Below are positions 7,854 through 20,983 of a stretch of DNA of 64,000 nt, piece by piece (the stretch's first letter is position 1; each line of letters begins with the position of its first letter). Under the pieces are notes generated by a model that did no database searches, was not told where the DNA came from, and saw nothing but the letters and a program-made list of their open reading frames with translations. Source of the DNA: Stutzerimonas stutzeri TS44 (GTDB lineage: Bacteria > Pseudomonadota > Gammaproteobacteria > Pseudomonadales > Pseudomonadaceae). The DNA is taken from NCBI GenBank assembly GCA_000263395.1, contig AJXE01000006.1, forward strand, positions 62,001-126,000, written 5' to 3'. The position numbers and the translations under genes are program-made.

Positions 7854-8471
7854 TCAGAGTACGTCGAGCAGTTCGACATCGAACACCAGCACGCTGTGCG
7901 GTGGGATGCTGCCGACGCCCTGCTCGCCATAGGCTAGCTCGCTGGGCACATAGAGGCGCCATTTGCTGCCGGCATTCATCAGTTGCAGGGCCTCGGTCCA
8001 GCCGGCGATCACGCCACCGACCGGAAATTCGGCCGGCTGGCCGCGCTCGTAGGAACTATCGAACACGCTGCCATCGATCAGCGTGCCGTGGTAATGCGTG
8101 CGCACACTGTCCTCGCGGGTCGGACGAGCGCCCTCGCCGGTGGCCAGCACTTCGTACTGCAGGCCGGACGCCAGCACCGTGACGCCCTCGCGCCGGGCAT
8201 TCTCGTCCAGGAAGGCGCGCCCTTGCGCGGCAGCCGCCTCGGCCTTCTGCTGCGCCTCGGCCTGCATGCGCTCGCGAATGACCGCGAAGCTGGCGTTGAG
8301 CTCCTGCGGGCTGACCTGGCTGGCAGCCCCGGCGAACGCATCGCGAATACCGGCGATCACCGCATCCAGGCTGACGCCCGGCGGCGGGTTGTCGCGCAAC
8401 TGGTCGCCCAGCTGGCGGCCGATGCCGTAGCTCACGCGGGTTTCGTCGGTAGAGAGGTTGAGTTCGGTCAT
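7854..8471 (-). CDS. fklB: FKBP-type peptidyl-prolyl cis-trans isomerase (FklB)
   Basis: This protein-folding catalyst speeds X-Pro isomerisation. Its 205 residues match FKBP22/FklB: an N-terminal dimerisation and chaperone helical region (about 1-90, ending in an Ala/Gln-rich helix) followed by the FKBP domain (about 95-205). The FKBP core motifs are visible: HYHGTLIDGSVFDSSYERG, FPVGGVIAGWTEAL and YVPSELAYGEQGVG.IPPHSVLVFDVEL. There is no signal peptide, so it is cytoplasmic, unlike FkpA. It is convergent with the iron-regulated small gene. Confidence 0.95.
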   Translation of the reverse strand: MTELNLSTDETRVSYGIGRQLGDQLRDNPPPGVSLDAVIAGIRDAFAGAASQVSPQELNASFAVIRERMQAEAQQKAEAAAAQGRAFLDENARREGVTVLASGLQYEVLATGEGARPTREDSVRTHYHGTLIDGSVFDSSYERGQPAEFPVGGVIAGWTEALQLMNAGSKWRLYVPSELAYGEQGVGSIPPHSVLVFDVELLDVL

Positions 8472-8538
8472 GCCGAGGCTCCGAAAGGCGAAAAAGGGCC
8501 GCTAGCCTAGCACAGCTCGCGCGCCGTTCTGCGCCGGC

Positions 8539-9027
8539 TCAGTGCTTGGTGAGCTTGTCCAGGTAGCCCATGACGAACGCCGAGAGCACGAAGGTCAGGT
8601 GGATGATCACGTACCACATCAGTTTCTCGCTCTCCAGCTGCTGGGCGTCCATGAACATGCGCAGCAGGTGGATCGAGGAAATCGCGACGATGGACGCCGC
8701 GACCTTCATCTTCAGCGAGCCGGAGTCCATCTTGCCGAGCCAGTCGAGCTTCTCCTTGCCCTCGGCGATGTCCAGCTGCGACACGAAGTTCTCGTAGCCG
8801 GAAATCATCACCATCACCAGCAGGCCACCAACCAGCGCCATGTCGATCAGCGACAGCAGCTTGAGGATCAGCTCGGCTTCGCTGAGCGCGAGGATCGCCG
8901 GCAGGATGTGGAAGATTTCCTGAAAGAACTTGATCGCCAGCGCCAGCAGCGCAAATGCCAGGCCGAAATAGATGGGCGCCAGCAGCCAGCGCGCCGCATA
9001 CATGGTGTTCTCAAGAAGGCGTTCCAT
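8539..9027 (-). CDS. UPF0114 family inner-membrane protein (YqhA/PA4574-like)
   Basis: A 162-residue integral membrane protein of the UPF0114 family. It starts [20 protein letters not shown] and has four hydrophobic segments (about 10-35, 52-75, 105-128 and 136-157). The family signature [11 protein letters not shown] follows the second segment. Function is unknown for the whole family. Same position as PA4574. A DnaA box lies 91 bases upstream of its start, in its probable promoter region. Confidence 0.9.
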
Positions 9028-9117
9028 GAGGCTCTCACAACAAGGGAGGAAATTCGGCTGGCGAGTATACGCAGCGCTAAATGACGGACAAGCCGAGGAT
9101 GTGCCGCGATATTACGT

Positions 9118-9126
9118 TGTGGATAA
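9118..9126 (+). promoter_or_regulatory. DnaA box (perfect 9-mer)
   Basis: TGTGGATAA is the exact complement of the consensus DnaA box TTATCCACA. It lies in the gap between the UPF0114 gene and a small hypothetical gene. A second perfect copy is at 9610-9618. Confidence 0.55.
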
Positions 9127-9190
9127 CGCCGCGCCCGGATGGCATCGCCGCGGCGCGCAGCGCTGCGCAAACATCACCCGCACGGCGCTC

Positions 9191-9532
9191 TCACGCCTCC
9201 GGCCGCGACTCCCAACCGCCGAGAAAGCGCGCCTGATTGGCGTTGACCCGGCGCAGCTCGGCCTGCATGTGCAGTTGCCAGATGGCCGGTTCCTCGGAGG
9301 TGCAGTAGCCCTGCCCCTGCAGGTTGCTGGCGATCATCTCCAGCACCGACTCGGCCATGCGTGCCCCGCGGAACGGGCCCTGCACCTTTATCGCCGTGGG
9401 CTGCGAGCCCGCCAGACCGGCCGCGCAGAGCAGCGTCCACAAGCCGTTGCCGCCTGCCAGCGGGCGGATCATGCATTCGACACGGGTCACCAGACCCAGG
9501 CATTGACGGTTCAGGCATAGCGCGTGCGACAT
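9191..9532 (-). CDS. Hypothetical protein (PA4575 position)
   Basis: A 113-residue protein from the ATG at 9530-9532 (MSHALCLNRQCLGLVTRVEC). The frame is open 25 codons further upstream, but that sequence is arginine-rich and unlike a protein N-terminus. The segment MIRPLAGGNGLWTLLCAAGL is hydrophobic. Later IWQLHMQAELRRVNANQARF looks like an amphipathic helix. I recognise no domain. It occupies the place of P. aeruginosa PA4575, between the UPF0114 gene and the Lon-like protease, and is flanked by DnaA boxes on both sides. Four cysteines in the first 45 residues (CLNRQC...C...C) could bind metal but do not form a standard motif. Confidence 0.65.
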   Translation of the reverse strand: MSHALCLNRQCLGLVTRVECMIRPLAGGNGLWTLLCAAGLAGSQPTAIKVQGPFRGARMAESVLEMIASNLQGQGYCTSEEPAIWQLHMQAELRRVNANQARFLGGWESRPEA

Positions 9533-9609
9533 GGCGGCGGTCCTCGCGACCTGGCTGCCGCAACGCCGAAGGCCAGCGCTGCCGGGCAGCCTGCTCATCC
9601 TCCACAAGC

Positions 9610-9630
9610 TGTGGATAAGCCTGTGGATGA
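9610..9630 (+). promoter_or_regulatory. Paired DnaA boxes
   Basis: TGTGGATAA (9610-9618, perfect) is followed three bases later by TGTGGATGA (9622-9630, one mismatch), in the same orientation, 78 bases upstream of the small hypothetical gene. The direct repeat at 12-base spacing resembles DnaA-regulated promoters more than chance. Confidence refers to the site, not to function. Confidence 0.55.
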
Positions 9631-9703
9631 ACGGTGAGTGGAGTCTTGCCCGGTAGACCTGCCGCTCGCGCTATCGTTCCGCTTGCCAGACAAAAAGTGC
9701 CAT

Positions 9704-12142
9704 CTATTTGCCTTCTTCTGTCGGCGCCTTGGCGCCGTCCGGGCGAGGGTCTTCCGCCTTGTCGTCATCCTCGAGGTCGATGGCGGCGATATCGCGCAGC
9801 CGCTCCACCACCCGCGCGTTCACGCTGCCGGACGGAAAGCGCCCCTGCTCGTCCGCTGCGCCGACCTGCTCGCCGACCAGCAGCGACAGCGCCTCATCGA
9901 CCTGGCGCACCGCGTAGACGTGGAAACGCTCGCAGCGCACCGCCTCCAGCACGCGCTCGTCGAGCATCAGCGTGTTGACGTTGGCGCAGGGGATGATCAC
10001 GCCCTGCTCGCCGGTCAGCCCGCGCGCCTCGCAGAGGCGGAAGAAGCCTTCGATCTTCTCGTTGACGCCGCCAACCGCCTGCACCTCGCCGAACTGGTTG
10101 ATCGAGCCGGTGATGGCGAAACACTGTTTGAGCGGCGTGCGCGACAGCGCCGAGATCAGCGCGCAGCATTCGCCCAGCGAGGCGCTGTCGCCATCGACGT
10201 AACCGTAGGACTGCTCCAGCGCGATGCTCGCCGAGATTTCCAGGGGAAATTCCTGCGCGTAGCGGCTGCCCAGATAACCGGTGAGGATCATCACGCCCTT
10301 GGAGTGGATCGGCTGGCCGAGGTTGACCTCGCGCTCGATGTCGACGATGCCCGAGCCGCCGGGATAGACGGTGGCGGAGATGCGTGCCGGCATGCCGAAC
10401 GCCGAGTCGCCCACCTCCAGTACCGTCAGCCCGTTGCACTTGCCGATCGCCGCACCTTCGCTGTCGATCAGGATCACACCGGCGAGAATGTCGTCGAGGA
10501 TGCGCGCCGACACCCGGCCGGTGCGGGTGGCCTTGGCCTTCAGCGCACGCTCGATGTGGCCGACGTCAGTCACCTCGTCCTTGGCCAGCTGACGAATGAA
10601 ATCAGCCTCGCTGACCAGCTGGAACAGATCGCCGATACGCGCCGACAGCCGTCCCTGGTGCTCGGCCAGCCGCGCGCTGTAGGTCGCCAGGCGCGCCACC
10701 GCGGCGGCGCTCAGCGGTGCCATGCCCTCCTCCGAGGTGCGCGTCTTCATCAACTGGGCGAACTGCTCGAGGCTGTCCTCGGCCAGCGGGATGTCCTCGT
10801 CGAAGTCCACCAGCACGCGGAACATCTCCTGGAAGTCCGGATCCAGGTCCTGCAGCGTGTAGTACAGCTGCCGCGAGCCGATGATGACCACCTTTACGTT
10901 GAGCGGGATCACTTCCGGCGTCAGCGTCACTGTGGCCAGGCGGCCCAGCTCGGCCAGCGGCGATTCCATCTTCAGCTTGCGCGACTGCAGCGCGCGCTTG
11001 AGCGCCTCCCAGACGAAGGGCTCGCTCAGCAGTTTCTCCGCCTCTAGCATCAGGAACCCACCGTTGGCGCGGTGCAGCGCACCCGGGCGCAGCTGCCGGT
11101 AGCTGGTGTAGAGCGCGCCCTGGTCGGTGTTGTATTCGATGCGGCCGAACAGGTTGTCGTAGGTCGGATGCGGCTCGAAAACCACCGGCGCGCCGGCGTC
11201 GAGGCTGTGACCGACCATCAGGCTCGGGCTGTACTGTTCTTCCAGCAGCACGCGGCTCTGCGCTTCCGGGCGGTTCTCGTCCACCAGTTGCTCGACCACC
11301 GTCTTCAGCAGGTTGACCTGCACCGCCTGCAGGTAGGCCTCGACCCCGGCGTTCTCCGCATACTTCTGCGACAACGGCGCCAGCAGCGGCTGCAACGCCT
11401 GGCTGATGGTCTCGTCATTGAGCAGGCGCAGCTGGTTGGTCGATTCGCGCTTCCACTGCGGCAGGCTGGCCAGCTCCTCGTTCAGGCGCACTTCCAGCGC
11501 GGAAATATCGCTGTGATAGCGCTCGCGCTCGGCTTCGGGCAACTGGGCGAAATCCGCCTCGTCCAGTGCCTTGCCTTCCTTCATCGGGGTGAAGGCGATG
11601 TTGCTGGCGTCGCGGTAGAGCGCGATCTCCTTCTCCAGCGCGAGCTTCTCGATCACATCGAGGGCCTTGTCGTAGCGCTGATTGAAGACGCGATCGATGG
11701 CGCTCTTCTTCTGCTGGAAGCTCGGATGCTCGAACACCGCCGGGAAGGTCGCCAGCAGGTTGTCGATCAGCTGGTTGATGTCGGCGATGAAGGCCGCCGC
11801 GCTGCCCGGCTCCAGCCTGAGCACGCGCGGCTCGCGCGGCTCGTCGAAATTGTTGATGTACAGCCAGTCGGCCGGCGTGTGCAGGCGCTTGCCCTCGGCG
11901 CGCAGATAGCGGCGCACGAAGGAGAAACGGCCGGTGCCCGGCTCGCCCATGACGTAGACGTTGTAGCCGGGACGCGGCATCGCCACGCCAAATTGCAGCG
12001 CCTCGACGGCGCGCTCCTGGCCGAGCACGCCGAGGAACGGCTCCAGCTCGTCGGTGTTGATGAAGTTGAACTGGCTGGGGTCGAACGGTCGGGTCAGCGC
12101 ATCGGGTGCCAGGCGCAGCCCGGCCGCGATAGATTCAGACAT
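9704..12142 (-). CDS. Lon-family ATP-dependent protease (LonB-like, PA4576 type)
   Basis: An 812-residue AAA+ protease from the ATG at 12140-12142, which has AAGGA upstream; the longer open frame is unrelated sequence. The N-terminal part carries a divergent ATP site (VMGEPGTGRFSFVRRYL, about 50-66) of the AAA_32 type, followed by a long helical insertion (about 100-300). The second nucleotide-binding block includes RANGGFLMLEAEKLL. The C-terminal third is a Lon protease domain with the Ser-Lys dyad: Ser in YVDGDSASLGECC and Lys in GGVNEKIEGFF. Walker A is degenerate (GEPGTGR rather than GKT), as in this subfamily. A cytoplasmic quality-control role is inferred. It is divergent from the cupin-nor operon. 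Confidence 0.9.
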   Translation of the reverse strand: MSESIAAGLRLAPDALTRPFDPSQFNFINTDELEPFLGVLGQERAVEALQFGVAMPRPGYNVYVMGEPGTGRFSFVRRYLRAEGKRLHTPADWLYINNFDEPREPRVLRLEPGSAAAFIADINQLIDNLLATFPAVFEHPSFQQKKSAIDRVFNQRYDKALDVIEKLALEKEIALYRDASNIAFTPMKEGKALDEADFAQLPEAERERYHSDISALEVRLNEELASLPQWKRESTNQLRLLNDETISQALQPLLAPLSQKYAENAGVEAYLQAVQVNLLKTVVEQLVDENRPEAQSRVLLEEQYSPSLMVGHSLDAGAPVVFEPHPTYDNLFGRIEYNTDQGALYTSYRQLRPGALHRANGGFLMLEAEKLLSEPFVWEALKRALQSRKLKMESPLAELGRLATVTLTPEVIPLNVKVVIIGSRQLYYTLQDLDPDFQEMFRVLVDFDEDIPLAEDSLEQFAQLMKTRTSEEGMAPLSAAAVARLATYSARLAEHQGRLSARIGDLFQLVSEADFIRQLAKDEVTDVGHIERALKAKATRTGRVSARILDDILAGVILIDSEGAAIGKCNGLTVLEVGDSAFGMPARISATVYPGGSGIVDIEREVNLGQPIHSKGVMILTGYLGSRYAQEFPLEISASIALEQSYGYVDGDSASLGECCALISALSRTPLKQCFAITGSINQFGEVQAVGGVNEKIEGFFRLCEARGLTGEQGVIIPCANVNTLMLDERVLEAVRCERFHVYAVRQVDEALSLLVGEQVGAADEQGRFPSGSVNARVVERLRDIAAIDLEDDDKAEDPRPDGAKAPTEEGK

Positions 12143-12279
12143 CGGAAATCCTTGGAGGATGGCACGCGGGCCACGATTGATGCCGTCATTCTGGCGTCGC
12201 CACCGGCACGCCGCAAGGCTGGCAGCGGCGCAGAAGCGGCGGCAGCGCGCACGGGCGAAGTCCGAGTAAACGGCCCGGC

Positions 12280-12305
12280 GCTCCCGCTGTCGCCGCAGCG
12301 GGAGC
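12280..12305. repeat. Perfect inverted repeat between the Lon-like gene and the nor operon
   Basis: GCTCCCGCTG and CAGCGGGAGC pair perfectly over 10 bp around a six-base loop, with no T tract. It lies in the 247-base divergent region. A second, shorter dyad (GGTTGGACAACC) is at 12335-12346. Either could be an operator or an RNA hairpin in a leader; no known regulator site is recognised. Confidence 0.5.
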
Positions 12306-12389
12306 ACGCCAAGGGCAACGGCGCTCGTCCGGCCGGTTGGACAACCACCGATACCTCTACTAGCCTCGGGCAAGACATGACTAAAGTGA

Positions 12390-12734
12390 ATGTCGCTCAT
12401 GGCCCTGAAGCATGCCCGCTCCGGTGAAGTGATCCATCTGCTGCGCGCAGACCAGCTTCCCGAACTCAAGTCGCAAGCCCTCGTCAGCACGCCCGAGCTG
12501 GAGGTCATGCGCCTGGTGCTCAACGCCGGGCACGTCGTTCCCCGCCACGCCGTGGCCGGCGCCATCACCATCCATTGCCTGCAGGGCAGCATCGAGGTCC
12601 AGGCCGAGGAGCGCCGGCAGACGCTGCACGCCAACGACCTGATATATCTGGCCGGCCAGGCCGGGCACGCCCTGCAGGCCATCACCGACACGGTCACGCT
12701 GGTGACCATCCTGCGCATTCCGGCGCCGCCCTGA
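12390..12734 (+). CDS. Cupin-domain protein upstream of the nor genes
   Basis: A 114-residue single-domain cupin. The conserved barrel region runs from about GHVVPRHAVAGAITIHCLQG through LHANDLIYLAGQAGHALQAI to TLVTILR. The first metal motif keeps one histidine (H of PRH) and a second (H of IHC); the later motif has GHALQA. Two starts are possible, 12390 (MSLMALKHARS) and 12399 (MALKHARS); neither has a strong SD. It ends 59 bases before a candidate 36-codon gene and 189 bases before norC on the same strand, with no terminator between, so it may be the first gene of the nor transcript. Metal binding and a sensory or detoxification role are inference only. Confidence 0.82.
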   Translation: MSLMALKHARSGEVIHLLRADQLPELKSQALVSTPELEVMRLVLNAGHVVPRHAVAGAITIHCLQGSIEVQAEERRQTLHANDLIYLAGQAGHALQAITDTVTLVTILRIPAPP

Positions 12735-12793
12735 TCGCGCCGCCCAAGCACCGAACCGCCCCCGCCACGTCACCTGCACAGAGGAATGCGGCC

Positions 12794-12904
12794 TTGGAAA
12801 GAGCTTTTCGGATACTCAGCTTCGTGGTCCTCGCGCTGATGCTGGTTGCCATTCTGTACGCCGGCGGCATCGGAATCACTCACTGGACAGGCATCGGCGT
12901 GTGA
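12794..12904 (+). CDS. Candidate 36-residue single-span membrane protein before norC
   Basis: A TTG start at 12794-12796 with AGAGGA eight bases upstream opens a frame giving (M)ERAFRILSFVVLALMLVAIL and then YAGGIGITHWTGIGV. One hydrophobic helix (about residues 7-27) is flanked by positive residues on the N-side, giving an N-in topology. It ends 19 bases before the norC ATG. Small single-span subunits are common in haem-copper oxidase operons (CcoQ-like proteins, for example), which makes translation plausible, but this is a short frame with a rare start codon and no family I can name. Confidence 0.42.
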   Translation: MERAFRILSFVVLALMLVAILYAGGIGITHWTGIGV

Positions 12905-12923
12905 CGGCCGTTGAGGCATCTCC

Positions 12924-13793
12924 ATGAACAAACGACAAACTCGCTCCTTCGCCGTCATCTCCACCGCCATCGCCACGGTGGTCTTCCTCGGCCTCACGGT
13001 GGACAGCCACCGGCAGTTTCCCAAGCTGACCAACGCCGAGACGATCACCCCCGAGGTGACGCGCGGCAAGGACGTCTGGCACGCGAAGAACTGCATCAAC
13101 TGCCACACCCTGTTCGGCGAAGGCGCCTACTACGCGCCGGACCTGACGAAGATTTCCCAGCTGCGCGGCGCGCCCTACCTCACCGCCTTCCTCAAGGACC
13201 CGGGCAAGTTCTACGACGAACAGCGCCACCGCCGGCTGATGCCCGACCAGAACCTCAGCGACGAGGAAATCGCCGCGCTGATCGCCTTCTTCGACTGGGT
13301 CGCCAACGTCGACAACCAGGGCTGGCCGCCGCGACCCATTCTGGTCACCGGCTCGTCGATCCCCGGCACCGACCTGACGCTGGCGCAGCAGGATGCGTCC
13401 GGCCCGGGCAAGGCCGATGCCGCGCTGCCACCGGGCGCACGCCCGATCAGCGGCGCCGAGGACCCGATCGCCAAGGGCGAGGCACTGTTCCGCACCGTCA
13501 GCCCTGCCTGCAACGCCTGCCACTCCATCGCCCCGGGGGTGAACCTGGCCGGGCCGACGCTGGCCGGCATCTCCGCGCGGGCCGAGCAGACGATGGCCTC
13601 GGCGGACTACAAGGGCAGCGCCGACAGCGTCGAGGCGTACATCCGCGAATCCATCGTCTCCCCCAGCACCTACCTGCATCCGGGCGAGATGTATTCGGCC
13701 GGCGGCACCTCGTTCATGCCGAACACCTACGCCCAAGCGCTCACCGACGAACAGCTCGACCAACTGGTCGCGTACCTCGCGACATTCAAATAA
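12924..13793 (+). CDS. norC: Diheme NorC-type cytochrome c subunit of nitric oxide reductase
   Basis: The membrane-anchored electron-entry subunit of a cytochrome c-dependent NO reductase, but 289 residues long where NorC is usually about 146. Residues 8-26 form the membrane anchor. The first domain is a full NorC: CINCH (57-61), HTLFGEGAYYAPDL, axial Met106 in RRLMPDQNLSDEE, ending NQGWPPRP (131-138). After a Gly/Ala/Pro-rich linker (about 140-178) a second class I cytochrome c domain follows: CNACH (196-200), LAGPTLAGI and axial Met265 in SFMPN. The second domain resembles the cytochrome c tails of caa3-type CoxB. GAGG precedes the ATG. The gene precedes norB by 42 bases. The diheme fusion suggests an internal electron-transfer wire that replaces or docks a soluble donor. 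Confidence 0.9.
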   Translation: MNKRQTRSFAVISTAIATVVFLGLTVDSHRQFPKLTNAETITPEVTRGKDVWHAKNCINCHTLFGEGAYYAPDLTKISQLRGAPYLTAFLKDPGKFYDEQRHRRLMPDQNLSDEEIAALIAFFDWVANVDNQGWPPRPILVTGSSIPGTDLTLAQQDASGPGKADAALPPGARPISGAEDPIAKGEALFRTVSPACNACHSIAPGVNLAGPTLAGISARAEQTMASADYKGSADSVEAYIRESIVSPSTYLHPGEMYSAGGTSFMPNTYAQALTDEQLDQLVAYLATFK

Positions 13794-13835
13794 CAGCGGC
13801 TGCGGCCGCAGGACGATACTTGTAGAGGTCAGGCC

Positions 13836-15206
13836 ATGCGCTACAAATCACAGTCCGTCGCTTACTGGTATTTCGCCTTCGCCATGGTGCTGTTCGGCCT
13901 GCAGATCGTGTTCGGCCTGCTCTCGGCATCGAAGTACCTGGGCCCCGATCCGCTGCTGAACCTGCTGCCCTTCGACATCACCAAGACGATCCACACCAAC
14001 CTGCTGATCGTCTGGGTACTCACCGGCTTCATGGGCGCCACCTACTGGATGGTCCCGGACGAGTCGCGCAGCGAGCTGCACAGCACCAAGCTGGCGTACA
14101 TCCAGCTCGGCCTGTGGGCGGTGATGGGCGTCAGCGCCGTCATCGGCTACCTGTTCCGCTACGGCACCGGCAACAAGCTGCTGGAGCAGCCGCTACCGCA
14201 CAAGATCGTCATCGTCATCTGCATGCTGATGTTCCTCTACAACATCGGCATGACGATCAGGAAGTCCGGGCGCTTCACCACCACCGAGGGCGTGCTGCTG
14301 CTCGGTCTGGCCAGCGCCGCGGTGCTCTACCTGCCGGCACTGCTGCATTACGAGAACTACACGGTGTCGATCTACTACCGCTGGTGGACCATCCACCTGT
14401 GGGTCGAGGGCGTGTGGGAGATGATCCAGGGCGGCTTCCTCGCCTATCTGCTGATCCGCCTGTCCGGTGCCGACCGCGAGGTGATGGAGAAGTGGCTGTA
14501 CGTGATCGTCGGCCTGGTGTTCATCGCCGGCATCCTCGGCACCGCGCACCACTATTACTGGGTCGGCGTACCCGGCTACTGGCTGCCGCTCGGCGGCTTC
14601 TTCAGCGCGCTGGAACCGCTGGCGCTGATCGGCATGGCGATGTACGCCTACTACGCCATGCGTCGCTCGGGCCTGGCGCATCCGAACAAGCTGGCGCTGC
14701 ACTGGACACTCGGCAGCGCGGTATTCACCCTGTTCGGCGCGGGCCTGCTGGGCTTCGCCCACACCTTCCCCAGCGTCAACAAGTGGACCCACGGCACGCT
14801 GATCACCGCCATGCACGGCCACGCCGCGTTCTACGGTGCCTACGCGATGATCGTCATGGCGATGATCGTCTACGCCCTGCCATCGCTGACGCGCGGGCGT
14901 GAAGAGGAAGGCGGCACGCTCGGCTACTGGGCGTTCTGGCTGCAGCTGACCGGCATGTTCGGCATGACCCTGTCGTTCGCCACCGCCGGCATCGGCCAGG
15001 TCTACCTGGAGCGCATCCTCGGCATGGGCTACCTGGATACGCAGCTGAAGATCCAGATCCACTTCCTCATGCTGGTGGCCACCGCCTCGATCTTCGCCTG
15101 CGGCGTCGGCCTGTTCATCTACGACTTCTTCCGTTGTCCGCGACGCAGCGAGGTCGAGGCGGACGAAGCGCGGCCCGGCGGCGCACCGGCCAGGCCGGTA
15201 CCGTGA
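13836..15206 (+). CDS. norB: Nitric oxide reductase catalytic subunit NorB
   Basis: The membrane subunit reduces 2 NO to N2O at a haem b3-FeB site. Its 456 residues carry about 12 membrane helices. All cNOR signature residues are visible: haem b ligand in IHTNLLIVW, FeB histidine and glutamate in IHLWVEGVWE, the HH pair in GTAHHYYWVG, the conserved Glu in SALEPLA, and the haem ligands in TAMHGHAAFYGAY. The N-terminus lacks the extra domain of quinol-type qNOR, so electrons must come through NorC. It looks diverged from the NorB of the main P. stutzeri denitrification cluster as I remember it, with a shorter loop after the third helix. The last 20 residues are a Pro/Ala/Arg tail. Overlaps norQ by four bases. 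Confidence 0.95.
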   Translation: MRYKSQSVAYWYFAFAMVLFGLQIVFGLLSASKYLGPDPLLNLLPFDITKTIHTNLLIVWVLTGFMGATYWMVPDESRSELHSTKLAYIQLGLWAVMGVSAVIGYLFRYGTGNKLLEQPLPHKIVIVICMLMFLYNIGMTIRKSGRFTTTEGVLLLGLASAAVLYLPALLHYENYTVSIYYRWWTIHLWVEGVWEMIQGGFLAYLLIRLSGADREVMEKWLYVIVGLVFIAGILGTAHHYYWVGVPGYWLPLGGFFSALEPLALIGMAMYAYYAMRRSGLAHPNKLALHWTLGSAVFTLFGAGLLGFAHTFPSVNKWTHGTLITAMHGHAAFYGAYAMIVMAMIVYALPSLTRGREEEGGTLGYWAFWLQLTGMFGMTLSFATAGIGQVYLERILGMGYLDTQLKIQIHFLMLVATASIFACGVGLFIYDFFRCPRRSEVEADEARPGGAPARPVP

Positions 15207-16024
15207 CGGACCTGAACGTCGCGCCGATGCCGCGCGTGCCGCCGCCCGCCGCCGAGCCCTGGTACCAGCCGAGCGCCGACGAGGTACAGGTGTTCGAGCA
15301 GTGCCACGCGCGCCAGCTGGCGGTGATGCTCAAAGGGCCGACCGGCTGCGGCAAGACACGCTTCGTCGAGCACATGGCCTGGCGTCTGGGCCGGTCGCTG
15401 GTCACCGTGTCCTGCCATGACGACATGACCGCCAGCGACCTGCTCGGTCGCTTCCTGATCGGCAGCGACGGCACCCGCTGGATCGACGGCCCGCTGACCC
15501 GCGCGGTGCGCGAGGGCGCCATCTGCTACCTCGACGAAGTCGTCGAGGCGCGCCAGGACACCATCGTCGTGCTGCATCCGCTGACCGACTACCGGCGCAT
15601 CCTGCCACTGGACAAGACCGGCGAAACCCTCGAGGCGGCGCCGGGCTTCCAGCTCGTGGTGTCCTACAACCCGGGCTACCAACGCATGCTCAAGGACCTG
15701 AAGCCCAGCACCCGCCAGCGCTTCGTCGCGCTGGAATTCGACTTCCCCGAAGCCGAGCGCGAGGCCGCCATCGTCGAGCGCGAAGGCGCTATCGATGCGC
15801 CCACCGCGCGCGCACTGGTCAGCCTCGCCGGGCGCCTGCGCGCGTTGCAGGATCGCGGATTGGCGGAACTGCCCAGCACCCGCCTGCTGATCGCCACCGC
15901 GCGCCTGATCGGCAGCGGCGTCGCGTTGCGCAGCGCCTGCAACGTCGCGCTGATCGCCCCCCTGTCGGACGACCCCGCGCTGGTCGGCGTCATGCGCGAG
16001 CTGGTCGACCTGACCTTCGTCTGA
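15203..16024 (+). CDS. norQ: NorQ/CbbQ-type AAA+ activator of nitric oxide reductase
   Basis: A MoxR-class AAA+ ATPase that, with the VWA protein NorD, inserts the non-haem iron of NorB. The 273 residues start at a GTG (15203-15205) inside the norB stop region (GTGA), giving (M)TDLNVAPMPRVPPPAAEPWY. Walker A is LKGPTGCGKTRF (about 49-60), Walker B ICYLDEVVEAR, and sensor 1 VVSYNPGYQRM. This matches NirQ/NorQ in length and order. The overlap with norB and with norD (ATGA at 16024) implies translational coupling. NirQ and NorQ are indistinguishable by sequence alone; context makes this NorQ. Confidence 0.93.
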   Translation: MTDLNVAPMPRVPPPAAEPWYQPSADEVQVFEQCHARQLAVMLKGPTGCGKTRFVEHMAWRLGRSLVTVSCHDDMTASDLLGRFLIGSDGTRWIDGPLTRAVREGAICYLDEVVEARQDTIVVLHPLTDYRRILPLDKTGETLEAAPGFQLVVSYNPGYQRMLKDLKPSTRQRFVALEFDFPEAEREAAIVEREGAIDAPTARALVSLAGRLRALQDRGLAELPSTRLLIATARLIGSGVALRSACNVALIAPLSDDPALVGVMRELVDLTFV

Positions 16025-18039
16025 TGGCCGAAGCCGAAGACGTCGTCACCGACGTCGCCCGCCATGCCACCGTCTACGTCCAGGCGCTCTGGCGCCGTCA
16101 TCGCGAATCGGCCGCCGGGCCGGCGCTACCGACCCTGGCGGACCTCGCCGACCACCTCGACCTGCTGCTGCATGCCAGCCTCGGCCAACGCTTCACGCTG
16201 CGCGCGGCGCAGCCGCCGGCGCCACCGACGCTGCTGGAGAAACTGTTCCGCCGCGTCGAGGCGCCCTACCCGCGGCACGCCGTGCCGGCCACCGATGGCC
16301 GCACGATCTGGCTGCCGGCACGCCTGGAAGCGGCCGATCCGATCGGTGTCCGCACGCTGTACCGCACCCTCGCCCTGCAACAGGCGATGCGCGCGCGGCG
16401 GGGTGCGGCATCGCTTGTGCAAAGCATCGGATCACCGTTGCAGCGCAGCCTGTTCCTGCTGCTCGAAGCCTGGGCAGCGGACACGCAACTGATCGCGCAG
16501 CTGCCGGGCCTGCGCGCCGCCATACAGCAGCAGCGCAGCCAGATGCTGGCCACACGTCCGCCGCTGGCACGCTTCAGCGTCGCGCGCCGGCCGCTGGAAG
16601 AATTTCTCCGCCGATTGCTGCAAGCGCCCGACAACGCCGCGCCCTACGAACTGCCCGCATCCTTCGACAGCCAGCAGGCGCTGCAACTGGCGGCGCGCCT
16701 GGCGGCACGGCTCTATCCACACGGCGAACCGACCGCCGCCGCGCTGTTGCCGGATCTGTGGACCGGCGAGCTGCGCGCGCCGTCCCGCCAGGATGCGCTC
16801 GATGCCACGGCGCCGGAACCGGACCCCGCCGCCGCGCCGCCGCGCAGCGCCCACCTGCCGCGCCGGCCGCAGGTGCGCGAGGCCGCCGAAGGCGAGGACG
16901 ACGACACGCAGCCGGGCGTCTGGATGGTGCAGCCTTCACCTCCGCTGGAGCATGTCGAAGACCCGCTCGGCATGCAGCGTCCCAGTGATCGCGACGAGGC
17001 GACCCCGGCCGAGGACTTCGCCGATTCGCTCAGCGAACTCAACGAGGCGCGACTGGTGACCAGCCCCGGCAGCCCGAAGGAAGTGCTGCTGTCCGACGAT
17101 CCACCCGAGCCGCGTGCGCGCTTCAGCCGAGACACACCGAACGCCACCGCCGCTCTCTGCTACCCGGAATGGGACTACCGCAGCCGCAGCTACCGCCACC
17201 CCGGCGCGCGGGTACTGCTGCTGCCGGCGGAGCCCGGTCCGCAGCAGTGGATCGAGCAGACGCTCGAACGCCACCGCAGCATGCTGGCGACCATCCGCCG
17301 CCAGTTCGAGCAGCTCAGCGCGCGACGCCTACGTCTGCGCCGTCAGCTGGATGGCGACGAGGTGGACCTGGACGCCTACCTCGACGGCCTCGCCGAGGCC
17401 CGCGCCGGCCTGAGCATGCCGCAGGCGCTGTACCAGACGCAGCGGCTGCAGCAGCATGACCTGGCAATCACGCTACTGGTCGATGCCAGCGGCTCCACCG
17501 ACAGCTGGCTGAGCAATCACCGGCGGGTGATCGACGTCGAACGCGAGGCGCTGCTGCTGGTGTGCCTGGCGCTCGACGGGCTGGGCGAGCCGTACTGCGT
17601 GCAGAGTTTTTCCGGCCAGGGGCCGAACGCAGTGACCGTGCGCAGCCTCAAGGCCTTCGGCGAGCGCTACGGCGAGAGCGTCGGCCGGCGCATCGCCGGC
17701 CTGGAACCGGAACACTACACGCGCGCCGGCACCGCCATCCGTCATGTCAGCAGCCTGCTGATGCAGCAACCGGCGACGCACCGGCTGCTGTTGCTGCTCT
17801 CCGACGGCAAACCCAACGACGTCGACGAATACGAAGGCCGCTATGGTGTCGAGGACCTGCGCCAGGCGGTCACCGAGGCCCGGCTGCAGGGCATCCGACC
17901 GTTCTGCCTGACCATCGATCGTCAGGCCGCCAGCTACCTGCCAGCCGTGTTCGGCGTGCACCAGTACGCCCTGCTGCCCAAGCCGGAGCTGCTGCCGCGG
18001 GTACTGCTGGACTGGCTTAGGCGGCTGATCGCGGCCTGA
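16024..18039 (+). CDS. norD: NorD, VWA-domain activator of nitric oxide reductase
   Basis: A large partner of NorQ needed to mature NorB. The protein has 671 residues, within the range for NorD. The N-terminal two thirds are helical and Arg/Ala-rich. A low-complexity acidic and proline-rich linker sits at about residues 260-350. The C-terminal von Willebrand A domain starts near 475 with the MIDAS motif ITLLVDASGSTDSW; LLLLSDGKPNDVDEYEGRYG supplies further MIDAS residues. There is no signal peptide, so it is cytoplasmic. The ATG overlaps the norQ stop. This is the last gene of the operon; no norE, norF or regulator gene follows. Confidence 0.92.
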   Translation: MAEAEDVVTDVARHATVYVQALWRRHRESAAGPALPTLADLADHLDLLLHASLGQRFTLRAAQPPAPPTLLEKLFRRVEAPYPRHAVPATDGRTIWLPARLEAADPIGVRTLYRTLALQQAMRARRGAASLVQSIGSPLQRSLFLLLEAWAADTQLIAQLPGLRAAIQQQRSQMLATRPPLARFSVARRPLEEFLRRLLQAPDNAAPYELPASFDSQQALQLAARLAARLYPHGEPTAAALLPDLWTGELRAPSRQDALDATAPEPDPAAAPPRSAHLPRRPQVREAAEGEDDDTQPGVWMVQPSPPLEHVEDPLGMQRPSDRDEATPAEDFADSLSELNEARLVTSPGSPKEVLLSDDPPEPRARFSRDTPNATAALCYPEWDYRSRSYRHPGARVLLLPAEPGPQQWIEQTLERHRSMLATIRRQFEQLSARRLRLRRQLDGDEVDLDAYLDGLAEARAGLSMPQALYQTQRLQQHDLAITLLVDASGSTDSWLSNHRRVIDVEREALLLVCLALDGLGEPYCVQSFSGQGPNAVTVRSLKAFGERYGESVGRRIAGLEPEHYTRAGTAIRHVSSLLMQQPATHRLLLLLSDGKPNDVDEYEGRYGVEDLRQAVTEARLQGIRPFCLTIDRQAASYLPAVFGVHQYALLPKPELLPRVLLDWLRRLIAA

Positions 18040-18055
18040 GCGGCGCCGAAACGAA

Positions 18056-18079
18056 AACGCCCTGCAGGTGCAGGGCGTT
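18056..18079 (-). terminator. Terminator shared by norD and mscL
   Basis: AACGCCCTGCA and TGCAGGGCGTT form an 11-bp dyad between the convergent norD and mscL. On the minus strand it is followed by TTTTCGTTTC, so it mainly serves mscL; rightward termination of norD is weaker. Confidence 0.75.
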
Positions 18080-18102
18080 CGACCATCGCGAAGACGCTCA
18101 GC

Positions 18103-18519
18103 TCAGGGCTGGTTGCGGTTCTGTTCGCGCAGCAGGTCGCGGATCTCGGTGAGCAGCAGCTCCTCCTTGGTCGGTGCCGGCGGAGCCGAAGGAGCCTCGG
18201 CTTCCTTGCGGCGCAGCGAATTCATCGCCTTGATCGCCAGGAAGATGGCGAAGGCGACGATCAGGAAATCCACCACGGTCTGGATGAACGCACCGTAGCG
18301 CAGCAGCACCGCCGGAGTTTCGCCGACCGCCTCCTTGAGCACGATCGCCAGGTCGGAAAAGTCCACGCCGCCGATCAGCAGCCCCAGCGGCGGCATGATC
18401 AGCCCGTCGACGAACGAGGAAACGATCTTGCCGAACGCCGCCCCGATGATGATACCGACGGCCATGTCGATCACATTGCCGCGCATGGCGAACGCCTTGA
18501 ATTCGCTGATCAGGCTCAT
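18103..18519 (-). CDS. mscL: Large-conductance mechanosensitive channel MscL
   Basis: An inner-membrane channel that opens under hypo-osmotic tension. The 138 residues start at 18517-18519 with [20 protein letters not shown], the classic MscL N-terminus; the open frame upstream is not MscL-like. TM1 ([20 protein letters not shown]) has the glycine-rich gate, TM2 is [19 protein letters not shown], and the C-terminal helix ends [12 protein letters not shown]-like sequence before a Gln/Asn tail. Convergent with norD; the 220 bases upstream (18520-18739) hold no gene. Confidence 0.97.
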
Positions 18520-18739
18520 ATGAGAAATCCTTAACTGATGATGGAATGCCACTACGCCCGCCGCCCCCACGGCGGCTGAGGCCCGCGCTAGAGCATAGGC
18601 GTTCGCTCGTGAGTCGACCACACCGATAGCGCATTCGTCGCGCGTCGCCAGCGCCGCGGCGATCGCTTGATCGCCGTCAACCGAGTAACGCCGGGGCGCG
18701 GCTAAGGTAGTACCTCCCTGTACATCCCGGAGCAGTTCC

Positions 18740-19012
18740 ATGCACGTTGAACATCACCCCCTGGTCAAGGATTTCCCCGAAAAGCGCGAACAGCTGCAGA
18801 AACTGCGTCAGGAAGATCCGGTTTTCGCCCGCAAGGCCGAGGAATACGAAGCACTGGACAAGCAGATCTGCCGCGTCGAAGACGGCGTTGAAACCCTTGA
18901 CGATGCCGCACTGAGCGCCCTCAAGCAGGAGCGTGTGAACCTGAAAGACGACATCGCCCGCGACCTCAAGCGCGCCTCCGGTGGCAGCTGCTGCGGCGGC
19001 TGCTGCGGCTGA
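18740..19012 (+). CDS. YdcH/DUF465 family protein with a Cys-rich tail
   Basis: A 90-residue protein. Residues 1-75 match the DUF465/YdcH family: two antiparallel helices starting [20 protein letters not shown], with [20 protein letters not shown] in the second half. The tail [10 protein letters not shown] adds two CC pairs in six residues and is not part of the helical domain; it resembles metal-binding or thiol tails. Family function is unknown. A strong AG-rich site precedes the ATG. It is followed by a bidirectional terminator and sits between mscL and a CopD-like gene, as in other pseudomonads. Confidence 0.88.
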
Positions 19013-19028
19013 AGCCCGGCAGATCGTC

Positions 19029-19056
19029 AAGAAGCCCGCATTCGCGGGCTTCTTTG
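19029..19056. terminator. Bidirectional terminator
   Basis: AAGAAGCCCGC and GCGGGCTTCTT form an 11-bp perfect stem with an ATTC loop and T tracts in both directions, between the convergent YdcH-like and CopD-like genes. Confidence 0.92.
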
Positions 19057-19069
19057 TTTCAGCAGTCGG

Positions 19070-19504
19070 TCAGAACAGCCCGCCGAAGCGGAACCCCGCG
19101 CCGACCCAGACAAACGCCACGCCGGTCAACGTAATCAGCACGATGTGTGCACCCAGCTGCGGCAAACGCTGCGCGTCGAGCTTGGGGATCAGCGCCAACC
19201 GCGCGTGCACGCCCAGCGCCGCGGTCAGCCCGAGCAGCACCAGCTTGGCCTGAATCAGCTGCGCCGCCGGCGTCGTGCCGAACCATTGCGCATGCGGCAG
19301 CCACAGGCTGGCCATCCACAAGCCCGTGACGATCTGCACCAGCAGCGCCGGAATGCCGATGCGCTCGTAAATCTGCTCGAAGTTGCGCACCGGCTGCGGA
19401 TCGCGCTGGCGCAGCGCCTTGGGCAGCACGCCGAACAGCAGCACCAGATGGCCGCCAACCCAGACGCTGGCCCCCAGCAGATGTAGAAACAGCAGATAGC
19501 GCAT
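19070..19504 (-). CDS. CopD-like four-helix membrane protein (PA4610 position)
   Basis: A 144-residue inner-membrane protein. It starts MRYLLFLHLLGASVWVGGHL and has four hydrophobic segments; the first contains HLLGASVWVGGHL, the histidine pattern of the CopD and related cytochrome b-like domain. A second histidine (GVHARLALIP) lies in the loop of helix 3 and a third in QLGAHIVLITLTG. CopD domains are linked to copper uptake or haem binding, but this stand-alone version has no established role. The start at 19502-19504 was chosen because the upstream open frame is low-complexity. Divergent from radA by 117 bases. Confidence 0.8.
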   Translation of the reverse strand: MRYLLFLHLLGASVWVGGHLVLLFGVLPKALRQRDPQPVRNFEQIYERIGIPALLVQIVTGLWMASLWLPHAQWFGTTPAAQLIQAKLVLLGLTAALGVHARLALIPKLDAQRLPQLGAHIVLITLTGVAFVWVGAGFRFGGLF

Positions 19505-19621
19505 GGCAACGACTCCTGTGCGTTTTGTTGACAGTCTCGCGCGGCCGGCGCGCCCCTGTAGCTGATGGCAATCAAGCCAGCCGTTATCATGCGGCTCCAT
19601 TTGCCCGACGCGGAGTTTCTC

Positions 19622-20983
19622 ATGGCCAAGGCCAAACGCATGTATGGCTGCACCGAATGCGGCTCGACCTTCCCCAAGTGGGCCGGCCAGTGCGGCGACT
19701 GCGGCGCCTGGAACACGCTGGTGGAAACCCTCATCGAAGGCGCCGCGCCGCCTTCCGGGCGCGCCGGCTGGGCCGGGGATCAGGCCAACATCAAGACCCT
19801 GGCCGAGGTCAGCGTCGAGGAAGTGCCGCGCTTCTCCACCGCCTCCGGCGAGCTGGATCGGGTGCTCGGCGGCGGCCTGGTGGACGGCTCGGTGGTGCTG
19901 ATCGGCGGTGACCCGGGCATCGGCAAGTCGACCATCCTGCTGCAGACGCTCTGCGCCATCGCCCAGCGCTACCCGGCGCTCTACGTCACCGGCGAGGAAT
20001 CGCAGCAGCAGGTCGCCATGCGCGCGCGCCGCCTGGACCTGCCGCAGGACAAGCTCAAGGTAATGACCGAGACCTGCATCGAGGCCATCATCGCCACCGC
20101 GCGGCTGGAAAAGCCCAAGGTGATGGTGATCGACTCGATCCAGACCATCTTCACCGAGCAGTTGCAGTCCGCGCCCGGCGGCGTCGCCCAGGTGCGCGAG
20201 AGCGCGGCCTTGCTGGTGCGCTACGCCAAGCAGAGCGGCACGGCGATCTTCCTGGTCGGCCACGTGACCAAGGAAGGCGCCCTGGCCGGCCCACGGGTGC
20301 TCGAGCACATGGTCGATACGGTGCTGTATTTCGAGGGTGAGTCCGATGGGCGCCTGCGCCTGCTGCGCGCGGTGAAGAACCGCTTCGGCGCGGTCAACGA
20401 GCTGGGCGTGTTCGGCATGACCGACAAGGGCCTGAAGGAAGTCACCAACCCCTCGGCGATCTTCCTCACCCGCGCCCAGGAAGCGGTGCCCGGCAGCGTG
20501 GTCATGGCGACCTGGGAAGGCACCCGGCCGATGCTGGTGGAGGTGCAGGCGCTGGTCGACACCAGCCACCTGGCCAACCCGCGCCGCGTCACCCTGGGCC
20601 TGGACCAGAACCGCCTGGCCATGCTGCTGGCCGTGCTGCATCGGCACGGCAGCATTCCGACCTACGACCAGGACGTGTTCATCAACGTGGTCGGCGGGGT
20701 CAAGGTATTGGAAACCGCGGCGGACCTGGCGCTGATGGCCGCGGTGATCTCCAGCCTGCGCAACCGCCCGCTGGATACCGACCTGCTGGTGTTCGGCGAA
20801 GTGGGACTGTCCGGTGAGATCCGCCCGGTGCCGAGCGGTCAGGAGCGCCTGAAGGAAGCGGCCAAGCACGGTTTCAAGCGTGCCATCGTGCCCAGGGGCA
20901 ACGCGCCGAAGGAGGCGCCGGCGGGCTTGCAGATCATCGCCGTGACGCGCCTGGAGCAGGCGCTCGACGCACTGTTCGAGTGA
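19622..20983 (+). CDS. radA: DNA repair protein RadA (Sms)
   Basis: A RecA-like ATPase that drives branch migration of recombination intermediates. The 453 residues start MAKAKRMYGCTECGSTFPKW at 19622. The N-terminal zinc finger is CTECGSTFPKWAGQCGDCG (10-28), Walker A GGDPGIGKST (about 98-107), Walker B VMVIDSIQT, and the RadA-specific KNRFGAVNELG (about 257). The C-terminal Lon-like domain (about 290-453) lacks a catalytic Ser-Lys dyad, as expected. An upstream ATG at 19565 would add 19 residues ahead of the conserved start. The stop lies three bases from that of the convergent PilZ gene. Confidence 0.97.
   Translation: MAKAKRMYGCTECGSTFPKWAGQCGDCGAWNTLVETLIEGAAPPSGRAGWAGDQANIKTLAEVSVEEVPRFSTASGELDRVLGGGLVDGSVVLIGGDPGIGKSTILLQTLCAIAQRYPALYVTGEESQQQVAMRARRLDLPQDKLKVMTETCIEAIIATARLEKPKVMVIDSIQTIFTEQLQSAPGGVAQVRESAALLVRYAKQSGTAIFLVGHVTKEGALAGPRVLEHMVDTVLYFEGESDGRLRLLRAVKNRFGAVNELGVFGMTDKGLKEVTNPSAIFLTRAQEAVPGSVVMATWEGTRPMLVEVQALVDTSHLANPRRVTLGLDQNRLAMLLAVLHRHGSIPTYDQDVFINVVGGVKVLETAADLALMAAVISSLRNRPLDTDLLVFGEVGLSGEIRPVPSGQERLKEAAKHGFKRAIVPRGNAPKEAPAGLQIIAVTRLEQALDALFE

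Follow-up and report, generated by a model that had tools for sequence, protein, structure and literature searches.

A nitric oxide reductase cluster with a diheme NorC

We analysed a 64,000-nucleotide stretch of DNA from Stutzerimonas stutzeri TS44 (contig AJXE01000006.1, positions 62,001 to 126,000; hereafter the window), which carries on its forward strand the genes of a cytochrome c-dependent nitric oxide (NO) reductase (cNOR). The cluster opens with a small open reading frame (ORF) of 36 codons (12794..12904) that has a TTG start with AGAGGA immediately 5′ of it; its product, MERAFRILSFVVLALMLVAILYAGGIGITHWTGIGV, has a single predicted transmembrane (TM) segment and is our proposed third subunit of the enzyme. 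Nineteen nucleotides separate its stop from the ATG of norC (12924..13793), which encodes 289 amino acids with two haem c sites, and norC is followed by norB, the gene of the catalytic subunit (13836..15206). The cluster continues past norB with norQ, encoding a CbbQ/NirQ/NorQ AAA ATPase (15203..16024), and norD, encoding a VWA-domain protein (16024..18039; Pfam match slightly below the curated cut-off), and ends at 18039. The GTG start of norQ, which overlaps the norB stop, is our choice; the ORF table lists a TTG at 15134 in the same frame. An Rfam search of window positions 8000-20000 gave no match. A first-pass annotation had recognised the diheme norC and norB, and had omitted the small ORF and the changed calcium and proton-channel positions of NorB described below.

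Both haem sites of NorC are invariant

The first-pass annotation had read norC as a complete NorC fused to a class I cytochrome c, with CXXCH motifs at residues 57-61 (13092..13106) and 196-200 (13509..13523) and proposed axial methionines at 106 and 265, and our results bear this out. In an alignment of 94 distinct diheme NorCs from 107 loci (the distant locus L161, described below, excluded), the eight ligand residues C57, C60, H61, M106, C196, C199, H200 and M265 are invariant in all 94. Residues 15-137 match the 146-residue Pseudomonas aeruginosa NorC (3o0r_C) with an expect value (E) of 9.1e-22, and both the N-terminal TM helix (residues 3-35 in the model) and the haem c domain are present. 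Furthermore, Pfam reports two cytochrome c stretches in NorC and no cupredoxin or CuA domain.

A Gly/Pro/Ala-rich linker (residues 141-180; 13344..13463) joins the two cytochrome domains. This linker is variable: its length, counted between the positions of residues 141 and 183, ranges over 20-45 residues, and the mean majority fraction is 0.55 over residues 144-180. We also observed that residues 126-143 (13299-13352; ..DNQGWPPRPILVTG), which flank the end of the canonical NorC, are the best conserved of five segments (mean majority fraction 0.947), and this degree of conservation suggests a fixed contact ahead of the flexible linker.

The C-terminal domain (residues 181-289; 13464..13790) contains a complete set of haem ligands, and residues 179-289 are predicted to fold as in class I cytochromes c. 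A profile built from 17 C-terminal domains matched a Kuenenia diheme cytochrome (E 3.7e-10) and, as its top single-domain match, the cytochrome c domain 1w2l of a caa3-type oxidase (E 5.6e-7), which we take to be that of Rhodothermus marinus. The C-terminal part of the AlphaFold model likewise has 1w2l as its best fold match (Z 11.5, root-mean-square deviation 2.8, 96 residues aligned), followed by Kustd1711 (Z 10.7-10.8) and a further match at 9.0. Foldseek returned only the two NorC structures at E <= 0.001. In addition, the C-terminal domain has matches at 35.5% in two Methylobacterium coxB records.

Diheme NorC is found in many genera and its NorBs form one branch

A full-length diheme norC match was found in 23 of the 37 genomes of the genus and in none of the 21 genomes that represent other families of the order, three of which have a match of monohaem length. 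In a GTDB scan, 170 stretches fit a pattern and 146 encoded a relative; among the best 80 of these 146, some of them from genomes that overlap with the genus set, all 80 named loci have two CXXCH motifs in full-length frames. They come from Pseudomonas, Stutzerimonas, Litchfieldella, Marinobacter, Pseudidiomarina, Cellvibrio, Rhodanobacter, Alcaligenaceae, Comamonadaceae, Oxalobacteraceae and others, and the nearest to the window is Stutzerimonas degradans DSM 50238 (NorC 97% identical). Two plasmid records also carry the cluster, namely Aquabacterium olei, where norR and ytfE lie upstream and the gene order is the same through norD, and Eleftheria terrae. The first-pass annotation had named separate halves in relatives, with a fusion unique to this strain, as the finding that would make the diheme NorC an accident; the genus genomes and the named loci show the opposite, and an artefact or strain accident is thereby ruled out. 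Diheme NorC is nonetheless uncommon overall, because among 398 genomes sampled evenly across the phylum full-length matches came only from the three members of the genus, together with one distant diheme NorC (L161, in genome G391).

As NorB used as query in place of NorC makes the selection independent of the diheme trait, we also searched 369 genomes of the class with NorB and found 78 with a match at E <= 1e-40. Besides the window's own, NorB identity was 86% in G002, 74% in G610 and 52% in G652, and at most 50% in all the rest. From about 80 places listed, we fetched the G610 and G652 loci and 18 others; the NorBs of G610 and G652 proved to adjoin a diheme NorC, and the 18 others are monohaem. 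Among 242 plasmid records, two had a NorB at 80-90% identity and 240 were below 60%. Overall, the diheme NorBs (without L161 and L197) are 73-95% identical to the window NorB, and 54 monohaem NorBs are at most 49% identical.

The NorB phylogeny proposed with the first-pass annotation yielded a largely undivided group. In a tree of 91 sequences (37 diheme rows hand-picked from 108 loci, and all 54 monohaem ones), 36 of the 37 diheme NorBs fall on one side of a single branch with a Shimodaira-Hasegawa-like approximate likelihood ratio (SH-aLRT) support of 99, and 35, all of those except L197, share a further branch at 100. When L161 and two long monohaem rows were left out, the diheme rows again formed one branch (SH-aLRT 99). 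These trees are quick searches with long-branch warnings and no bootstraps. Stutzerimonas NorBs occupy three places within the diheme clade, a scatter that suggests transfer of the cluster between lineages.

Two diheme loci stand apart. L161 (G391:C6:99000-110778) encodes a distant diheme NorC, 301 amino acids long from the chosen start, next to a NorB just 31% identical to that of the window. L197 (G652:C44:283000-297000) encodes a diheme NorC of 240 amino acids and a NorB 51% identical, which has Lys114 and Arg182, the replacements described below, and retains R134, R57 and D198; it is possibly an early branch. If this placement is right, the second haem and the K114/R182 replacements would predate the small protein and the other replacements, since L197 has the former, keeps the three residues just named and is without the small ORF.

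NorB keeps its metal ligands and has changed calcium and channel positions

For NorB, we compared 90 distinct diheme sequences (L161 and L197 excluded) with the 54 monohaem ones, using P. aeruginosa numbering. The first-pass annotation had stated that NorB keeps all catalytic residues of cNOR, which holds for the metal ligands and for Glu138, Glu211 and Glu280, and fails for Glu135 and most of the proton-channel residues. The FeB and haem ligands (H207, H258, H259 and E211; H60, H347 and H349) are kept in 89-90 of the 90, the one shortfall coming from a gapped, truncated row; E138, E211, N335 and H339 are kept with one row gapped, and E280 is kept in 89.

Glu135 is replaced by Lys in 90/90 diheme NorBs; the monohaem set has Glu in 51, Ser in 2 and Lys in 1 of 54. 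In the window this is Lys114 (codon 14175..14177), an assignment whose register depends on aligning NKLLEQP with REFLEQP without gaps, HMMER having set the gap elsewhere. Trp202 is replaced by Arg in 90/90 (Arg182 in the window, codon 14379..14381) and is Trp in all 54 monohaem sequences. Likewise, R134 is Asn in 89 and Ile in one diheme NorB (Arg in 54/54 monohaem), D198 is Ser in 78, Ala in 11 and Glu in one (Asp in 54/54 monohaem), K199 is Ile in 89 and Thr in one, and N54 and R57 are Asp and Lys in 89 rows, one row being cut. On the NorC side, E57 (P. aeruginosa numbering) is His in 93 of 94 diheme sequences, and E70, G71, Y73 and N60 are kept in 94. As a separate observation, residue 195 of NorB (14418-14420; E215 in P. 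aeruginosa) is Met in 24 of the 90, for example in the nirK-linked L054.

The ligands of the cNOR calcium have been described as the propionates of both b haems, E135, the G71c carbonyl, Y73c and a water, and other haem-copper oxidases have two arginines at the calcium place (PMC4816578; PMC10256718). Proposed proton channel 1 comprises E135, D198, K53c and E57c, with R134, K199 and E70c also near, and channel 3 comprises E135, E138, R57, N54 and N60c (PMC3431322). Judged by these assignments, the sequences of diheme NorBs have lost most of the proposed proton-channel residues. A survey of cNORs gave 88% Glu and 9% Lys at E135 (PMC4816578); Lys at this site has thus been counted before, and we saw no comment on it in the accessible text of that paper. 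As Glu is present in only 51 of our 54 monohaem sequences and in 88% of that survey, we treat Glu135 as typical of cNOR and not as defining it.

A small membrane protein gene precedes the diheme norC

A counterpart of the small ORF stands before norC in each of the 78 named loci whose upstream sequence is available, the contigs of L133 and L134 ending before this region. Taking named loci, genus genomes and the two plasmids together, it is present in 103 of 106 diheme loci (80 distinct peptides), with L133, L134 and L161 as the exceptions. Monohaem loci gave none: 0/36 by hidden Markov model (HMM) and 0/18 among further loci, 0/54 in total. With a profile of ten peptides, all 23 genus genomes that have a diheme norC scored E < 1e-17 and none of the 14 others of the 37 did, and the window's own genome has a single match; G023, which is without a diheme norC, has a weak match (E 0.013) within a 701-amino-acid frame. 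Among the 369 class genomes it was strong only in G000, the window's own genome (1.2e-20), and G002 (5.2e-19). A further 26 gave matches at E 3.8e-4 to 0.1, mostly partial and within long frames, which we read as probable chance matches to a TM segment. The diheme locus of G610 (L196) has a divergent copy 45 nucleotides upstream of norC (E 0.0096).

The small ORF evolves as a protein-coding sequence, as judged from its substitution pattern. The ratio of nonsynonymous to synonymous change (pN/pS) is 0.27 over 198 pairs, or 0.25 when 31 disjoint pairs are taken, compared with about 1.25 in the two other frames; the corresponding Fisher value of 1e-47 assumes independent changes and is merely indicative. 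The ORF ends 8-42 nucleotides before norC in 104/104 cases. A Shine-Dalgarno-like stretch lies at 101 of the 104, with starts (ATG 66, TTG 22, GTG 16) assigned by a simple rule that favours such a stretch. All 81 distinct peptides contain a hydrophobic stretch of 19 residues, and a C-terminal W-x-G-I-x-V is invariant among ten aligned peptides. The net charge is higher N-terminally in 57 of the 81, which points, modestly, to a periplasmic location of the conserved end. Searches of single members against known families gave best E values of 0.22 (Pfam) and 0.25 (NCBIfam), and the only PDB match had E 2.4. We propose that the product of this ORF is, most likely, one of three subunits of the enzyme. 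Genes of 36 codons readily escape annotation, and the displayed gene tables of the A. olei and E. terrae records, which are incomplete, do not contain it.

Gene neighbourhood and candidate regulatory sites

The core shared among loci is norC-norB-norQ-norD, and the flanks vary. A norD family member was found in 82 and a norQ family member in 61 of 91 clustered loci, counts that are lowered by cut contigs and antisense frames. A cupin-domain gene recognised by Pfam lies upstream of the small ORF in the window (12390..12734, forward strand). A member of this family is present in 9/91 clustered diheme loci; the window copy is outside this count, as the clustering took a longer antisense frame at its place.

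The window genome, a 4.28 Mb draft, has a second, canonical monohaem norCB on contig C3 with cytochrome d1-family matches nearby, and two NosZ-family matches that are both under the cut-off of the model used. No copper nitrite reductase (nirK) above the family cut-off was found in this genome. In 9 of the 23 diheme genomes of the genus, nirK is the immediate upstream neighbour of norC, apart from the small ORF that lies between the two. The suggestion that the operon serves outside full denitrification is therefore only partly right: it has to be squared with the d1-family matches and the canonical nor locus in this genome, and with the nirK-linked clusters in others. In G006 (C1:2397721-2399727), nirK ahead of norC is in two pieces about 1.1 kb apart. 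In L102, L110, L113, L149, L157 and L196, candidate nirK genes (clustered with nirK by blastp) lie near the diheme norC but are placed differently or face the opposite way.

In 8/91 loci, all Stutzerimonas by title or genus, a gene belonging to one family begins some 1.7 kb upstream of norC; the family member in L081, the closest named relative of the window, is a di-haem peroxidase gene. Eight of 25 loci examined have an FNR-type box, perfect or with a single mismatch, at 1.66-1.78 kb before norC. Compared with L081, the window is missing about 1.2 kb at 12229..12256, comprising the peroxidase gene and a one-mismatch FNR-type box. The window genome has no CCP_MauG match, and no FNR-type box with at most one mismatch was found within 2.6 kb upstream of the window norC (three lie elsewhere in the window). 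Because of this missing segment, the nor promoter of the strain may have changed.

Closer to norC, FNR-type boxes with up to two mismatches were found within 520 nucleotides in 27 of 91 distinct loci, compared with 9.9 expected, and in 13 of these 27 the sole match is inside the small ORF (at -30, or at -48 to -51). A stricter DNR-type pattern was found in 6 loci (1.0 expected). A sigma54-like pattern gave no signal over the 91 loci (23 compared with 19.3 expected).

Relation to known enzymes

Judged by sequence, membership in the cNOR family follows from the metal ligands, the architecture of NorC and the presence of norQ and norD, with the calcium ligand Glu135 absent. Other assignments were considered and rejected. 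Quinol-type reductases (qNOR) have NorC-like and NorB-like parts in one chain, which are separate frames here. The sNOR, gNOR and eNOR types need a cupredoxin second subunit, where this enzyme has a cytochrome c and Glu at E211 and E280; N or Q replaces the active-site Glu in sNOR and eNOR (PMC8756737). A caa3-type oxidase is likewise rejected, as NorC is without a CuA or cupredoxin domain and only the fused domain is alike.

With the cNORs of P. aeruginosa (3o0r) and Paracoccus denitrificans, the window enzyme shares the NorC TM and haem c core and the haem b, haem b3 and FeB ligands of NorB. It differs from them by a second haem c domain, the upstream small TM protein, the NorB replacements Glu135Lys, Trp202Arg, Arg134Asn, Asp198Ser/Ala, Lys199Ile, Asn54Asp and Arg57Lys, and Glu57His in NorC. 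With the caa3-type oxidase (1w2l) it shares a class I cytochrome c fused to the subunit of electron entry; that subunit is the CuA subunit II in the oxidase and a haem c-bearing NorC here, with NO as substrate. The Thermus thermophilus NorCBH, called heterotrimeric, likewise has a third small membrane-protein gene in a cNOR operon (PMC7694296). Its norH (98 amino acids) follows norB and its NorC has one CXXCH, whereas in the window norQ follows norB and the small ORF precedes norC.

Diheme NorC as such is already known, in print since 2006 by citation. Tbd_0822 of Thiobacillus denitrificans, described as a 'non-canonical norC (diheme; Beller et al., 2006a)', has two haem sites like the window norC (PMC3753534). 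The reverse complement of the primer used for its inactivation reads VWHENN (PMC3753534), and of 95 distinct diheme NorCs 93 have His at that place (NorC position 53), against 0/54 monohaem ones. Since the primer thus encodes the variant that marks the diheme subfamily, it hints that Tbd_0822 belongs to the same subfamily; the accessible printed account is silent on a small ORF and on NorB residues (PMC3753534). Furthermore, an extra norCBQD cluster behind a clade II nirK has been reported in Stutzerimonas (PMC13086519), and is probably the same diheme cluster given the position of nirK directly before norC in 9 of our 23 diheme genomes. The accessible part of that account mentions no second NorC haem, small ORF or NorB changes, and the window strain differs from it in having no nirK over the cut-off. 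In the open literature that we covered, we found no description of how far the family extends, of the grouping of its NorBs on one branch, of the small gene that goes with it or of the NorB changes as a trait of the subfamily.

A proposed tethered electron donor and a probably rebuilt periplasmic side

We consider it probable that these enzymes form a distinct three-subunit, four-haem subfamily of cNOR with a tethered electron donor. In the likeliest mechanism, the tethered second cytochrome c would take electrons from the respiratory chain, most likely from the bc1 complex directly or from a periplasmic cytochrome, and pass them to the core haem of NorC, on to haem b and then to the haem b3/FeB site of NorB, where two NO would be reduced to nitrous oxide (N2O). 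The likeness of the extra domain to the fused cytochrome c of caa3 oxidases favours, by analogy, such a relay, which the first-pass annotation had also suggested. The 36-residue single-TM protein would most likely sit as a third subunit against NorB and NorC, with its conserved H/Y-W-x-G-I-x-V end probably in the periplasm. Lys114, perhaps with Arg182, would most likely replace the calcium that links the two b haems in the studied cNORs, and the periplasmic proton input of NorB has most likely been rebuilt. The most specific version, a calcium-free, three-subunit, four-haem cNOR where the calcium bridge has given way to positive residues, like the two arginines of other haem-copper oxidases, protons take another route and the tethered cytochrome dispenses with soluble donors, is more tentative, and we put it at somewhat under an even chance.

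Each part of this proposal has a competitor. The second cytochrome domain could be a docking or redox-buffer module, with a soluble cytochrome or azurin still feeding the core haem, as the variable linker and the canonical nor locus in the same genome would allow; we regard this as unlikely, because both haem sites are equally invariant and the nearest fused relative of the domain is that of the caa3 oxidase. For the small ORF, a role as leader peptide or assembly factor outside the mature enzyme would explain its constant position just ahead of norC, as translational coupling needs, and the lack of a detected copy in the diheme locus L197. The protein-like codon evolution, the invariant C-terminal motif and the hydrophobic stretch fit a membrane protein better, which makes a role outside the mature enzyme rather doubtful, with an assembly factor being possible. 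The chance that the calcium is retained, with Lys114 exchanging a single ligand and nothing essential altered, is greater, though we still think it the less probable course. Gly67 and Tyr69 of NorC, the other protein ligands, are kept in 94/94, and substitutions of P. denitrificans E122, the same Glu as P. aeruginosa Glu135, left 14-35% (E122A) and 30-83% (E122D) of activity, varying by preparation; E122Q, however, kept 1% (PMC4816578), and Lys in 90/90, accompanied by a second new positive residue at 182 and by replacement of Arg134, Asp198 and Lys199, looks like coordinated rebuilding. Finally, the missing upstream segment may have changed expression in the window strain, as would fit an accidental fusion or a functionless pseudogene, but invariant ligands and full-length frames in 80/80 named loci from many genera make this highly improbable.

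Several observations weigh against a four-haem, three-subunit enzyme with a tethered donor. The conserved Gly67 and Tyr69 mean that calcium may still be bound. The AlphaFold model of NorC is of moderate quality (mean predicted local distance difference test score, pLDDT, 69), with the linker and the first haem loop below 50 (residues 131-151 and 153-172 among them). The HMM behind the small-ORF counts was built from the same peptides it then found, the searches of later loci, genus and class being fairer; the ten-peptide profile missed the divergent copy in G610, and L197 is an example of a diheme cNOR without it. The NorB of L161 lies on a separate, very long branch, with Glu at 135 and Arg at 182, so that two separate origins of the fusion are conceivable and its link with the NorB changes may not be a necessary one. 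The Tbd_0822::kan mutant was viable, and its Fe(II) oxidation was not lowered (5.2 +/- 0.12 compared with 3.3 +/- 0.52 in the wild type; PMC3753534). More generally, the subfamily is known here from its sequences, and haem incorporation and NO reduction are predictions.

Significance

cNOR is usually described as an enzyme of two subunits and three haems that is served by a soluble donor, and its calcium site and periplasmic proton channel are known from work on P. aeruginosa and P. denitrificans. A naturally occurring subfamily with an altered donor side, a small membrane protein and exchanged calcium and channel residues, yet with its catalytic metal ligands intact, would offer a test of which of these features matter. 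It is also relevant to gene surveys of N2O formation, since both kinds of cNOR can share one genome.

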